Shown here in pieces: positions 41,763-47,109 of a stretch of 64,000 nucleotides of DNA (position 1 is its first letter; each line of letters begins with the position of its first letter). Made by a program: the position numbers and the translations under genes. The DNA comes from Hyphomonadaceae bacterium (GTDB taxonomy: Bacteria; Pseudomonadota; Alphaproteobacteria; Caulobacterales; Aquidulcibacteraceae). Location: NCBI GenBank assembly GCA_019753175.1, contig JAIELK010000010.1, forward strand, positions 62,001-126,000. Direction: 5' to 3'. The notes under the pieces are model-generated. The model had not been told where the DNA came from, did not search any database, and saw only the letters and a list, made by a program, of their open reading frames with translations.

Positions 41763-44700
41763 TCACAAGCCGCCTAGGCGCGCAAGCGCGGCCTGATAAT
41801 TAGCCAACTGGGCGCGCAGATGGGCGGGCGCCTCGCCCACAGCGTTGCGGCGCTGCTCCAGCGCTTTTTCCTCGTCGGTCAATTCCTTGGCGTTCGGGTT
41901 GACCAGCGCCTCGTAGGCGCGGCGAACCAGCGACAGGGCGGCGGAAAGCTGAGCCTTGGTTCGGGTGATTGAGGCAGGCGCATCGATGCGCAGGTTCGCT
42001 GTCAGCAATTCGAGGCCAAACGACTTGGTCTCCCCAGCGCCTCCTTGCTGGGCGACCAATCCCGGCCTGATGCCAAGGCCAGCCAATCCGTCGCGCCCCT
42101 CGCGTCCAGCTTCCAGCCGGATCGCAGAATCGCCGTTCGGCGTAATCTTCAGTCGCTCGAAGCCCGCCTCCCGCAGCACCGTCACCCGCCCCGCGGAGCC
42201 AACCGCGCGCTGCATCCCCGCAACCAGACTCGCCAGAGTGTCATTCGCTTGGATGCGGATCGTGGCCATCCGCCCGCCGTCCACGCCGATGCGAAATTCG
42301 TCGCCGACCCGGACCGCGCTACGACTGGCGACCAAACCGGCATCGCGCGCCGCAACCACGCCGATTGGCAGGCCGAGCACATCGAGCGCCGAGGCAGCGT
42401 CGGGCGACACCGCCACGCCTGCCAGCGAGAATGAGCCGCCCGACGATCCGAAGGTCCGCATCCACGCGGCCTCTCCGTCTTGATCGAGCCGCGCCACAAA
42501 GCCGGCGCTCCTGTTGGCCGCGCCTTGCCCGGCGATGACGCCGCCAGACACGCCCGCGGCATAAACAGCGCCAGCGGCAATCGCCAAGCTCTTCACCGAA
42601 TCGTTCTGCGCCGAACCAAGATAGGTCGCTCGATCCAACAAAGTGGATGAAAGATCGACGTGCAGCCGCGCGACGAACCCCTCCTGAGCCGCCAACGCAG
42701 GCCGCGCCGGTATCCCGAGCGTGAGGCGATCGGCGCCGATCTCACCACCCACGAATAGCGCCGCCCCGTCCGACACCATTGAATGGATTGAGCCTTGGTG
42801 GAAGTTGCCGATGTCGCGCGAAGGTCCCTCGCTCAGTCCAGCGCTTGCCGCGTACGTGAAGCGTCTCACCACGCCGCGGTTGTTCTCAACCCCTGCGCTG
42901 ATGACGTCAAAGCTGCCGCCGCCGGCGTCTCGCACAAGCAAGGCGGTCGCCGCGTCATCAGCGCCTGTGCCGAACTGACGCGTGAACAATTCGAGGCCGC
43001 TGGCGCTGTAGCCGCGCAAATAGGCGTCCGATGCGCCAAGGGCGATTTGATTGCCGATTGAAGACTGCGTACGCCCAGCGACGATGACAGAACCATCAGG
43101 CGCGAATGCAACGGCGTTCGCTTGGTCGCTTGCGTTGGCACCGCGGCGTGCGGTCCACAGCTCCTCGCCGTCAGCATCAAGCAGCGTCACAAATGAGTCC
43201 GCGCCGCCCTGTCCTTGGGCGCCGACCAGCGTGCCTTCCACCGAGCCCGCAATCGCCACCTTGCCATCGCCGGCGACGGCCAAGGCGAAGCCGCTTGCGG
43301 TCTCGCTTGCGCCAAGCATGCGGCTGAAGACGATCCTGCCGGCGCTGTCATACTTGAAGAGAGCCACGTCGCGCGCGCCTTTGATCGCACTGACCGCGGA
43401 ATCGCCGCTCAAATCGGCGAGCACGTACACTGCCCCTTCAGCGCCCGCCGCCACTGCGCGGGCGGTGGCGACCTTGGTCCCCGCACCGACGCCGACGTCG
43501 AACGCCCGTCCAGGAAACCAAGCCGACGCGTTGGCGCTGGGCGCGACGAAGGCGGCCTGCGCCGGGATGACCATGGAGACCGAACCACCGCGCGCGGCGC
43601 GATCCGCCACACGAGCGGCGCCAATCGGGTCGTCGGCCGCACTTGCACTGTCGATCGGGTCGAGCGTCACGTCGTGCGAGACGCCGCCAAGGTTGAGGTC
43701 TGTGACCGTCCGGACGCTATGCGACCCACCGATGACCACCCGCAGGCCTGCGCCACCACCCGACAATGCGACAGCGGCAAGCCCCAGATCATAACCCTGG
43801 GCGGCGAGAGCTTCGTTCAACCGAAGTGCCGCGCTCTCCAAACTCCGTGCATCGCCGACTTGCAACGCGGCGCTAACGGTTCTCGATCCCCATACCGTGT
43901 CGAAGGTAATCGACACGTTCGGGTCGCTCACGAGCGACGCCATGGTGTCGGCAACGCCGGTTGCGGCCTCTGCGCTCGTAGAGCTTCGTGTTGCGGAAAA
44001 GGCGCCGCCGAGCGCAAACGACGGCGCCGGCGACGAAAGTGTGAGCGAACCTCCGTTGATCGTTATCGATTCGATGCGATGCCCGGCGCCTTCACTGGCG
44101 CGCCATTGGGTGAGATCAGCGCTGAGCGAGCCGACGTAGACGCCCGCTTCATTAAGCGCCTCGCTCAGCCGCGTCTGAAATGTGGCGCTCCACTCGCCGG
44201 GAGCGGGATCGGGATCGTTGGCGCGCTCGAGCGCGCTCACCGAAACACTGACCGTTCTTGATCCTGTCGGCGTCTGCACGACGATCGCGATGTCCAGCGC
44301 ACCGGTGTGAGCCAGCAGGGGAGGACTCCCGACCGCATAGGATCTGAGCGCGTCGCCGAATGGCTGGCCGGGGGAAGCCGCAGGCAAACCGCCCGTAGCC
44401 CAACCACCTGGCGCTTGCCGTGCCGGCGTATGCAAGACACCGTTCAATCTGGCGCTGACGCTTGTAATTTCGTGCAGCGCGTCGAGCCGAAACGTTAAGC
44501 TCCCGGCGACGTCGACGAGTGACGCGGCAGCAGCAACGCCGCGATCGCGCAAGGCCTCGTTCAATTGCTGAGCGAGCGTCGCTGAATCTATTCCGGCGGC
44601 GCCTCCAGCTATTGTGATCGTCTCCTGTTTGGCGCCCAGCGAGATCACAAACGTCTGATCCCCGACAAACATCTGGCTCGTGCTGGCGACGCCTGCAGCA

Positions 44701-46193
44701 TCGAAACGTCGAGCGAACACACCTTCGCGAAGGCCGCCAGCCATGTTGGGCGGTTCGATAACGTCGATCGCCGTTGCTCGACCGCCAATGTCGAGGCCAG
44801 ACGCCTTCAGGCCGTCGGAGGTGAAAACTGAAAGACCGAGTTGGCCCCCATTTTCCCACACCTCCACGCCTGCGGGGACGCCTTGCTCGTGCGCAAGCTG
44901 AGTCAGGCGCTCCGCGAGATCATCCAGGATGGCCCGATCGCTGCTCTCGCCGGCCCGCGTGCGCCACGCTTCAGCGTCCTCAGCGCGCCATCCCGAAGTA
45001 ATGGTGAAGAAGCGGCCGTCGCTGGTCTCCAGTTTCAACACCGCCTCACCGGCAACCCGTAACGCGGTTTCGAAATTGTTGGCGCCCGCGGACATCAGCG
45101 CATTGGTGCGATGCTCCCAGGCGCCGCTTGGAGCCGACGCGTAGGGCACGCCCGGTCCGAACCAACCCGTCGCCACGTGCGGGCCAATCGGTGAGGCCGT
45201 GGCGCCCGGACGCGTCATCCAAACGGGCTGACCGCCTTCGCCGCCCACATCGCTGAGCTTGATCAGCCGCGGGCCGCTTTGCGTTGCGCCAAGCGCATAG
45301 AAAGCGGGCTCGCTGGCGCCAGGTTGAAAGGCGACCGTCTCACCGGCGCGGACATCGACCTTGAGCCCGTATTGCTTGGGGCCCGCGTAGCGCGACGTGA
45401 TCGTGCGCCCTGCAACGACAATTGTGTTTTGTTTGGGGGTGAGATCCAGAGCTTCCAGGCGCGAGGCCGCACCGGCTGCCGAGAGTTCCGCGTTGATGTG
45501 ACTGAGCACACTACCCAGAGTACGCGGGGTCGAGCCCATGTCGCTGAGATCGATCGCGACACTGCGAACCGTACCCGTGGCCGACGTTGCTCGGATCGTA
45601 AACTGCGCGTTCGGGTCCAGGCCTTTGACCGTGTCGAAGAGACCGCCGCGGTGGATGAGGCCCGTGGAATAGTCCTCTGTTCGCACCGGCAACGCCAACG
45701 TCGTTTGTGTGGTATCGACGCGCTCGCCTTGCACGAGCCGAAGATCTTCAAAACGCTGCTTTGCGAAGAACGATTCCAGCTCGCTGAGGCCGCGAGCAAA
45801 CTGCGCCGCGACGCGGGCGCGGTCAGGAACAGATAGGTCTTTGGTCTCGGCCCGCGTAGCCAAGCCCTGCAGCATCGAGATCCCGGTGTGCAGGGCGAAG
45901 AGGCGACGATAGTCGCCGGTTGCGCCGAGATCGCTGATGACCTGGGTATCAACCTCGAAGAACGGGCGATTCGCCAGCGCACGTTCCGCCATGGCAGCTG
46001 CGCCAGGCGACAGCCCGGGCGTCCAGATCGGCGCGATCGGCGCGTTGGGGTCCTGGCCGACAGAGGCGTCGGTGGGCCCAGCGCCGGTCCGGGCGCGCAT
46101 CGCCGCTGTCAGAAGATCGGCGTCCAGGCCTGTGACCACGGAAGTCGAGCCGCCGAGCAGTCGCAGCGAGAGGTTTGGGGGAATCGATACCAA
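41763..46193 (-). CDS. Giant mosaic protein: flagellin/FliD-type insert modules around a beta-propeller (possibly FlaEY-like)
   Basis: 1476 residues from a TTG with GGAG 6 nt upstream. Residues 90-160 are helical. About six modules resemble flagellin/FliD IN motifs, each a beta hairpin, a helix of the type SATLAQQLNEALRDRGV and a closing strand pair: roughly 190-290, 383-470, 505-585, 630-722, 750-840 and 1293-1380 (the last with NDTLASLVAGMQ and DGLAGLGI). Between 905 and 1260 lies a beta-propeller-like array (AVAGDGKVAIAGSVEG, AFAPDGSVIVAGRT). Residues 1393-1470 are helical like a flagellin C-terminus. No signal peptide is seen, fitting flagellar-type or other non-Sec secretion. Caulobacter FlaEY is a large flagellin-related regulatory protein and may be the relative; this is a memory-based suggestion. 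No flagellar genes adjoin. Confidence 0.7.
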   Translation of the reverse strand: MVSIPPNLSLRLLGGSTSVVTGLDADLLTAAMRARTGAGPTDASVGQDPNAPIAPIWTPGLSPGAAAMAERALANRPFFEVDTQVISDLGATGDYRRLFALHTGISMLQGLATRAETKDLSVPDRARVAAQFARGLSELESFFAKQRFEDLRLVQGERVDTTQTTLALPVRTEDYSTGLIHRGGLFDTVKGLDPNAQFTIRATSATGTVRSVAIDLSDMGSTPRTLGSVLSHINAELSAAGAASRLEALDLTPKQNTIVVAGRTITSRYAGPKQYGLKVDVRAGETVAFQPGASEPAFYALGATQSGPRLIKLSDVGGEGGQPVWMTRPGATASPIGPHVATGWFGPGVPYASAPSGAWEHRTNALMSAGANNFETALRVAGEAVLKLETSDGRFFTITSGWRAEDAEAWRTRAGESSDRAILDDLAERLTQLAHEQGVPAGVEVWENGGQLGLSVFTSDGLKASGLDIGGRATAIDVIEPPNMAGGLREGVFARRFDAAGVASTSQMFVGDQTFVISLGAKQETITIAGGAAGIDSATLAQQLNEALRDRGVAAAASLVDVAGSLTFRLDALHEITSVSARLNGVLHTPARQAPGGWATGGLPAASPGQPFGDALRSYAVGSPPLLAHTGALDIAIVVQTPTGSRTVSVSVSALERANDPDPAPGEWSATFQTRLSEALNEAGVYVGSLSADLTQWRASEGAGHRIESITINGGSLTLSSPAPSFALGGAFSATRSSTSAEAATGVADTMASLVSDPNVSITFDTVWGSRTVSAALQVGDARSLESAALRLNEALAAQGYDLGLAAVALSGGGAGLRVVIGGSHSVRTVTDLNLGGVSHDVTLDPIDSASAADDPIGAARVADRAARGGSVSMVIPAQAAFVAPSANASAWFPGRAFDVGVGAGTKVATARAVAAGAEGAVYVLADLSGDSAVSAIKGARDVALFKYDSAGRIVFSRMLGASETASGFALAVAGDGKVAIAGSVEGTLVGAQGQGGADSFVTLLDADGEELWTARRGANASDQANAVAFAPDGSVIVAGRTQSSIGNQIALGASDAYLRGYSASGLELFTRQFGTGADDAATALLVRDAGGGSFDVISAGVENNRGVVRRFTYAASAGLSEGPSRDIGNFHQGSIHSMVSDGAALFVGGEIGADRLTLGIPARPALAAQEGFVARLHVDLSSTLLDRATYLGSAQNDSVKSLAIAAGAVYAAGVSGGVIAGQGAANRSAGFVARLDQDGEAAWMRTFGSSGGSFSLAGVAVSPDAASALDVLGLPIGVVAARDAGLVASRSAVRVGDEFRIGVDGGRMATIRIQANDTLASLVAGMQRAVGSAGRVTVLREAGFERLKITPNGDSAIRLEAGREGRDGLAGLGIRPGLVAQQGGAGETKSFGLELLTANLRIDAPASITRTKAQLSAALSLVRRAYEALVNPNAKELTDEEKALEQRRNAVGEAPAHLRAQLANYQAALARLGGL

Positions 46194-46248
46194 GCGGCGC
46201 TCCAGTCGCCACCTTGTATCCGGCGAGTAAACGGCGCGTTGCGCGCCG

Positions 46249-47109
46249 TTATCTCATGCCCGCCACTTCCACCATGTCTTTGAAGACCGGATACTCCAGC
46301 AGGCGCGGCCAAAGTTGGATGCCTTGCCATATGGATAGGCCGATCACGAGCACTGCGGCCGCCGCCAACAAAACGCGCGCCGGCATTGTTTTGGTAACGT
46401 AGCCGGCGAGCGGCGCAGCGAGGAGGCCGCCCATGATCAAACCCAGCAGCGAAGCGCCGGCGACGAGCAAGCCCCCCTCGATCTCAAACCTTCCCGTAAT
46501 CAATGCAAACAGGAAGGTTAGAGATATCGCAATCGTCACCACAAACTCAGCGGAATTGACGCTGCCTATTACGTAGCGTGGCGTGTGGCCATGGCCGAGC
46601 AGCGTTGACGTGACGATCGGCCCCCAGCCACCGCCGCCGCTGGCGTCGAGAAAACCGCCAACCAATCCGGTCGGAACAATGTGATCGAGATGGGGCGGCT
46701 CTTCGCGCATTTTGCGCATGGCGCGATAGAGCATGTAGACGCCGAGACAGCCGAGATACGCTATCACAACCGCCTTGATGAAGGTCGGGTCGAAACCGGT
46801 CAGAAGATAGGCGCCGACAACGCCGCCCAGGACGCCTGCCGGCGCGAGCCGCCAGAACAAGCGCCAATCAATGTTTTTGTGCAGGAAGTGGGAAACGCCC
46901 GACGCTCCTGTCGTGAAGCACTCCGCGACATGGATCGTTGCCGAGGCCTGCGCCGGCGGGATGCCAAAAGCCAGCAGCACACTGGACGAAATCACGCCGT
47001 AGGCCATACCAACCGCGCCATCCACCAGCTGAGCGAAAAAGCCCACCAGCATGAAGAGGACGAACGTGGTCGCGAGCGCGGGCCAAAGGTCCGTTAATGC
47101 TTCCAACAT
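46249..47109 (-). CDS. TauE/SafE-family sulfite/anion exporter
   Basis: 286 residues with about eight membrane helices in two repeats. GFFAQLVDGAVGMAYGVISSS and its counterpart VGGFLDASGGGGWGPIVTS are the paired TauE/SafE (formerly DUF81) signatures; TTGASGVSHFLHKNIDW follows the first. Members export sulfite, sulfoacetate or related organosulfur anions; the substrate here is unknown. Its gene stands 55 nt upstream of the giant mosaic gene on the same strand. Confidence 0.92.
   Translation of the reverse strand: MLEALTDLWPALATTFVLFMLVGFFAQLVDGAVGMAYGVISSSVLLAFGIPPAQASATIHVAECFTTGASGVSHFLHKNIDWRLFWRLAPAGVLGGVVGAYLLTGFDPTFIKAVVIAYLGCLGVYMLYRAMRKMREEPPHLDHIVPTGLVGGFLDASGGGGWGPIVTSTLLGHGHTPRYVIGSVNSAEFVVTIAISLTFLFALITGRFEIEGGLLVAGASLLGLIMGGLLAAPLAGYVTKTMPARVLLAAAAVLVIGLSIWQGIQLWPRLLEYPVFKDMVEVAGMR

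Follow-up and report, generated by a model that had tools for sequence, protein, structure and literature searches.

A genus-specific long form of a flagellar protein family, most probably FlaEY, with a possible role at the filament tip

We analyzed a 64,000-nucleotide stretch of DNA from a Hyphomonadaceae bacterium (termed the window) and found that it carries the gene for a long form, specific to one genus, of a flagellar protein family of alphaproteobacteria that is most probably FlaEY. The enlarged variant is new, and its parent flagellar family is known and poorly understood. The chances are about even that the encoded protein is an exported component of the flagellar axis, plausibly a substitute for FliD at the filament tip.

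A conserved gene outside the flagellar clusters

The open reading frame (ORF) of 1476 aa runs on the minus strand from a TTG start and is a real, conserved gene. The original prediction of this ORF is borne out across the genus: at 56 to 64% identity, almost every congeneric genome keeps it open, the exceptions being one copy with two stops and a few copies cut at contig ends. No such gene was found in two congeneric genomes of low completeness. The start codon is TTG in nearly all aligned congeners and GTG in two. The gene lies between a tRNA-Thr gene and a TauE/SafE gene, the latter being directly upstream in each congener aligned.

41763 to 46193, minus strand: FlaEY-type gene, long form (ORF; frame and TTG start conserved in the genus)
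46249 to 47109, minus strand: TauE/SafE family permease gene, not flagellar (Pfam, 4e-37; upstream neighbor throughout the congeners)

The intergenic region between these two genes (46194 to 46248) contains a CGTTTAC element kept in nearly all congeners, which is possibly a promoter and is not of the sigma-54 type; a sigma-54 promoter was sought upstream of the long forms in the genus and was not found.

The gene had been described as having no flagellar neighbors, which holds within the window; the genome itself has flagellar clusters, located on two other contigs. Contig 32 carries flhA, flbD, fliN, fliG, fliF, flgE, flgD, fliK, flgK, and flgL, and contig 1 carries fliM, fliL, flgF, flgG, flgA, flgH, fliX, flgI, flgJ, a flagellin gene, flbT, and a gene for a FlaF-like protein. 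The flagellar gene set is thus near complete. FliD was not found with the FliD_N and FliD_C profiles in the host genome or in 40 relatives, and Caulobacter vibrioides, included as a control, likewise gave no match. A giant FlgL of the host genome, reported as a 1043-aa open frame, was rejected, the FlgL ORF itself having 310 aa. Beside the single flagellin gene of the genus, we noticed a gene for a ∼240-aa protein with flagellin-like ends (L089:7368-8165 in the host; L091:10936-11721) and, between flagellin and flgJ-flgI, one for a conserved membrane protein of ∼410 aa (L089:6120-7358; L091:11732-13009).

Domain organization of the window protein

A Pfam search with the window protein alone returned nothing useful, with no match to flagellin, FliD_N, or FliD_C. 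Family profiles were needed. The features are listed in the order of the protein, six candidate modules (M1 to M6) having been cut at residues 190 to 321, 376 to 481, 500 to 591, 622 to 734, 748 to 851, and 1285 to 1394.

45723 to 46016, minus strand: N-terminal helical domain, flagellin D1-like, residues ∼60 to 157 (hhalign, PDB, and Pfam)
45231 to 45626, minus strand: insert module M1, residues ∼190 to 321 (99.7% probability versus the short-form N-terminal module)
43554 to 45206, minus strand: long-form insert of ∼550 residues (∼330 to 880), without counterpart in ∼900-aa homologues; boundaries approximate and aligner dependent
44751 to 45068, minus strand: insert module M2, residues ∼376 to 481, long form only (1.8e-5 versus M3; 3.6e-5 versus M5)
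44421 to 44696, minus strand: insert module M3, residues ∼500 to 591, long form only (6e-6 versus the short-form C-terminal module)
43992 to 44330, minus strand: insert module M4, residues ∼622 to 734, long form only, the weakest (7e-4 versus M2; 1.4e-3 versus M5)
43641 to 43952, minus strand: insert module M5, residues ∼748 to 851, long form only (1.2e-6 versus the short-form N-terminal module)
42369 to 43481, minus strand: SBBP beta-propeller, residues ∼905 to 1275, about seven blades by length (NCBIfam, profile, and model)
42012 to 42341, minus strand: insert module M6, residues ∼1285 to 1394 (PDB FliD, E 3e-5; hhalign FliD, 4e-6)
41766 to 41981, minus strand: C-terminal helical segment with a final conserved QLANYQAALxRL helix (conserved columns; low-confidence model)

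Both ends had been likened to flagellin termini. For the N-terminal domain this stands: its helices matched flagellin with an E value of 6.8e-6 and a probability of 85 (hhalign, 28 short homologues against 11 flagellins), over the flagellin D1 region that ends in the F-x-G-x-x-L-x-x-G turn. The N-terminal family profile matched PDB flagellin weakly (E 0.012), and in Pfam searches Flagellin_N was matched by 1 homologue of 14 (9e-4) and Flagellin_IN by 2 of the 14 (best, 0.029). The C-terminal end is helical, as predicted, but in profile-profile comparison it did not significantly match the C termini of flagellin or FliD; the same method recognized no D0-like helix at the N terminus. Measured against a flagellin, which has Flagellin_N and Flagellin_C and D0 helices at both ends, the window protein thus matches in part of the N-terminal D1 alone. 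No Sec signal is present on inspection by eye, in agreement with the original prediction.

About six insert modules had been proposed from the letters, with boundaries drawn by eye, and both the count and the boundaries agree with the profile results, with M4 being weak and uncertain. Against a background of 300 shuffled controls, the best of which scored 4e-4, M2, M3, and M5 are linked to each other or to short-form modules with E values of 1e-6 to 4e-5, and the match of M5 to the short-form N-terminal module is colinear across 80 columns. The scores of M4 (7e-4 and 1.4e-3) are no better than those of the controls. M1 and M6 are common to the long and short forms (probability of 99.7 for M6). 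Among the modules, M6 is the closest to the IN domain of FliD, with an E value of 3e-5 for the family profile against PDB structures and of 4.4e-6 in profile-profile comparison. An absence of flagellin-like modules from profile searches, named at the outset as a result that would tell against the prediction, did not occur.

The propeller-like array proposed between the fifth and sixth modules occupies that position in the profile results and proved to be a propeller of the SBBP type. The window protein matched the SBBP repeats of NCBIfam at 1e-18, the family profile matched the CylK propeller at 7e-67, and an AlphaFold model of residues 852 to 1476, in which only the propeller was usable, matched CylK at 7e-11. 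A model of residues 1 to 622, computed with two sequences, was too poor for use (mean pLDDT of 37). CylK and the Leptospira LipL53 family share the propeller alone with the window protein and have no flagellar parts; our literature search yielded no report of SBBP proteins in flagella.

In other alphaproteobacteria, IN-type modules also occur as insertions in FlgK and in flagellin/FlgL-like proteins (L083:4220-6442 and L085:3144-5333; L084:4637-6325 and L088:3527-5221). We conclude that the module moves among axial proteins and that by itself it is no sign of a cap.

A long form of a family encoded in flagellar clusters

The window protein aligns end to end with homologues of 885 to 977 aa, through residues 1 to ∼320 and ∼890 to 1476. 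In these short homologues the propeller is flanked by a single module on either side, and the ∼550 additional residues of the long form follow the first module and precede the propeller. The C-terminal profile of the family, built with the query among its members, gave E values down to 1e-84. The two terminal parts show identities of up to 39% to short flagellar forms. Roughly 50 homologues were collected in all. Homologues at E < 1e-20 were present in 24 of 289 sampled alphaproteobacterial genomes, together with one damaged copy. Across 249 sampled genomes of the phylum, every match at an E value of 1e-8 or better falls in the alphaproteobacteria, and no relatives were found in viral contigs. 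We saw the long form in no genus other than that of the window, where it is the sole family member in the genomes that have it; a second genus of the same bacterial family has an 888-aa form.

Many of the short homologues, though not all, are encoded in flagellar clusters. Some adjoin flagellin genes (L020-L022), and others lie beside flgJ-flgI, often with fliX (L094-L096 and L098). In one case (L106), the homologue is flanked by fliG and a rod gene, and flgN, flgJ, flgI, and fliX are close by. On a plasmid of Erythrobacter aureus (NZ_CP031358), the family gene, which spans the start of the record, again lies between fliG and a rod gene, in a near-complete flagellar cluster that includes FlgK and two flagellin-type genes and in which no FliD was annotated or found by profile; a plasmid of Sphingobium sp. 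V4 shows the same gene order. For about half of the sampled loci, the detection used found no flagellar gene in the flanks that were fetched.

In Sphingomonas, a published cluster includes flbD, fliX, flbT, and flaEY (PMC8921679). We use the name FlaEY because the synteny of the short homologues matches this cluster, so that the assignment rests on synteny and on that report. The suggestion that the window encodes a FlaEY-like flagellar protein is thereby supported: its end-to-end homologues of ∼900 aa are encoded in flagellar clusters, in a fliX/flbD neighborhood like that of Sphingomonas FlaEY (PMC8921679). With FlaEY (Caulobacter FlaE/FlaY; Sphingomonas sp. WG), the family thus shares a place in flagellar clusters, the likeness being one of synteny, whereas the window protein is ∼550 residues longer, has about four more modules, and is encoded outside such clusters.

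Distribution of FlaEY-type genes and FliD

Among 182 flagellin-positive alphaproteobacterial genomes, 68 have FliD, 23 have a FlaEY-type gene, none has both, and 91 have neither. This zero overlap has a hypergeometric probability of 8e-6 with genomes as the units and of 6e-5 when each family is counted once (14 and 46 of 99 families), both values being uncorrected for phylogeny. With FliF as the marker, 169 genomes divide into 64 with FliD, 21 with a FlaEY-type gene, 0 with both, and 84 with neither; FliD was absent from every FlaEY-positive genome tested. In one bacterial family (f15), four sampled genomes have FliD and another (G517) has a FlaEY-type gene and no FliD_C match, which looks like a replacement of one gene by the other within a single family.

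Weak-hit loci in genomes with neither gene were inspected for divergent relatives, and six of these loci had a readable match. Five are not of the FlaEY type: two encode FlgK, two encode flagellin/FlgL-like proteins, and one encodes an autotransporter-like protein in which the module match is due to chance. The sixth (in G227) is a genuine FlaEY-type gene of the short form, whose frame is apparently damaged. At another two weak-hit loci there was no match.

Motile Rhizobiaceae and Phaeobacter have been reported to lack FliD (PMC6913195 and PMC12363192). Together with the 91 of 182 genomes that have neither gene, these reports imply that a flagellum without FliD needs no FlaEY-type protein. Many motile alphaproteobacteria lack FliD, and their filament cap is not described in the literature that we found. 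A subset of the FliD-less genomes carries the FlaEY family, which is tied to flagellar loci and consists of parts of filament and cap type, so it offers a concrete gene for the cap question.

A possible filament cap and the alternatives

An exported axial protein is the simplest account of the parts of axial type, the flagellar-cluster genes, and the distribution that excludes FliD. The vacant job in FlaEY-positive genomes is the filament cap, and from this we infer a cap function. We tentatively propose, with slightly less than even confidence, that the FlaEY family is a non-orthologous replacement of FliD that caps the filament in one FliD-less alphaproteobacterial group and that the genus of the window has a giant version; such a cap would combine flagellin helices with FliD-type modules and a propeller. 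Capping is the leading mechanism and has the standing of an unproven hypothesis, in which export, location, and cap function are plausible readings of the sequences.

In this mechanism, the protein would exit the cell via the flagellar export apparatus, as other axial proteins do. Its flagellin-D1-like N-terminal helices, together with the C-terminal helices, would attach it to the filament end. Its FliD-like modules and propeller, directed outward, would promote the assembly of flagellin at the tip in the place of FliD. In the genus of the window, the outward part would have been enlarged by about four modules and the gene would have departed from the flagellar cluster, an expansion that would exemplify growth of an outward-facing part by module duplication.

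The resemblance to FliD (HAP2) lies in the C-terminal module of the family, which matches the FliD IN domain, and in the complementary distribution. Unlike FliD, the window protein has no FliD_N or FliD_C match and its C-terminal helices do not correspond, and FliD in turn has neither the propeller nor the flagellin-like N-terminal helices. Flagellins and FlgL-like proteins can also carry IN modules; the window protein differs from flagellin (FliC) and FlgL in having no recognizable N-terminal D0, no significant C-terminal match, and a large modular middle with a propeller.

The same homology and genomic evidence would also fit an exported axial part other than the cap, such as a hook-filament junction protein or a minor decoration of the filament, with propeller and modules exposed at the surface and serving, for instance, adhesion or filament stiffness. 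FlgK and flagellin/FlgL-like proteins too hold IN modules, and many genomes have neither FliD nor a FlaEY-type gene, so a cap role need not be that of FlaEY. Against this, the host genome already has FlgK and an FlgL-like protein, and a decoration would not predict mutual exclusion with FliD. We regard such a part as unlikely, at roughly one chance in four.

FlaEY of Sphingomonas sp. WG has been called a possible regulatory protein (PMC8921679), and control of flagellin synthesis by a regulator or assembly factor in the cytoplasm would accord with earlier observations, as cited in PMC8921679, that in Caulobacter the expression of flagellin genes is modulated by FlaE and FlaY and that a Sphingomonas flaQ mutant has altered fliC expression. 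However, Pfam and NCBIfam searches of 14 members revealed no DNA- or RNA-binding or other regulatory domain, and the domains present are typical of secreted or axial proteins. The old phenotypes may also be explained by a defect in filament assembly that indirectly alters flagellin levels. A regulator is therefore improbable in our view, and the label may have hidden a structural role of FlaEY in the literature.

Least probable, and in our estimate quite improbable, is that the long form is no longer flagellar and has become a cell-surface or secreted protein that uses flagellar export: the orphan position beside the TauE/SafE gene throughout the genus, the ∼550-residue enlargement, and the lack of a sigma-54 promoter would suit it, whereas the gene is the only family member in its genomes, both of its ends are conserved with the short forms, the genomes retain flagellin and still have no FliD, and a short form occurs in the family's closest other genus.
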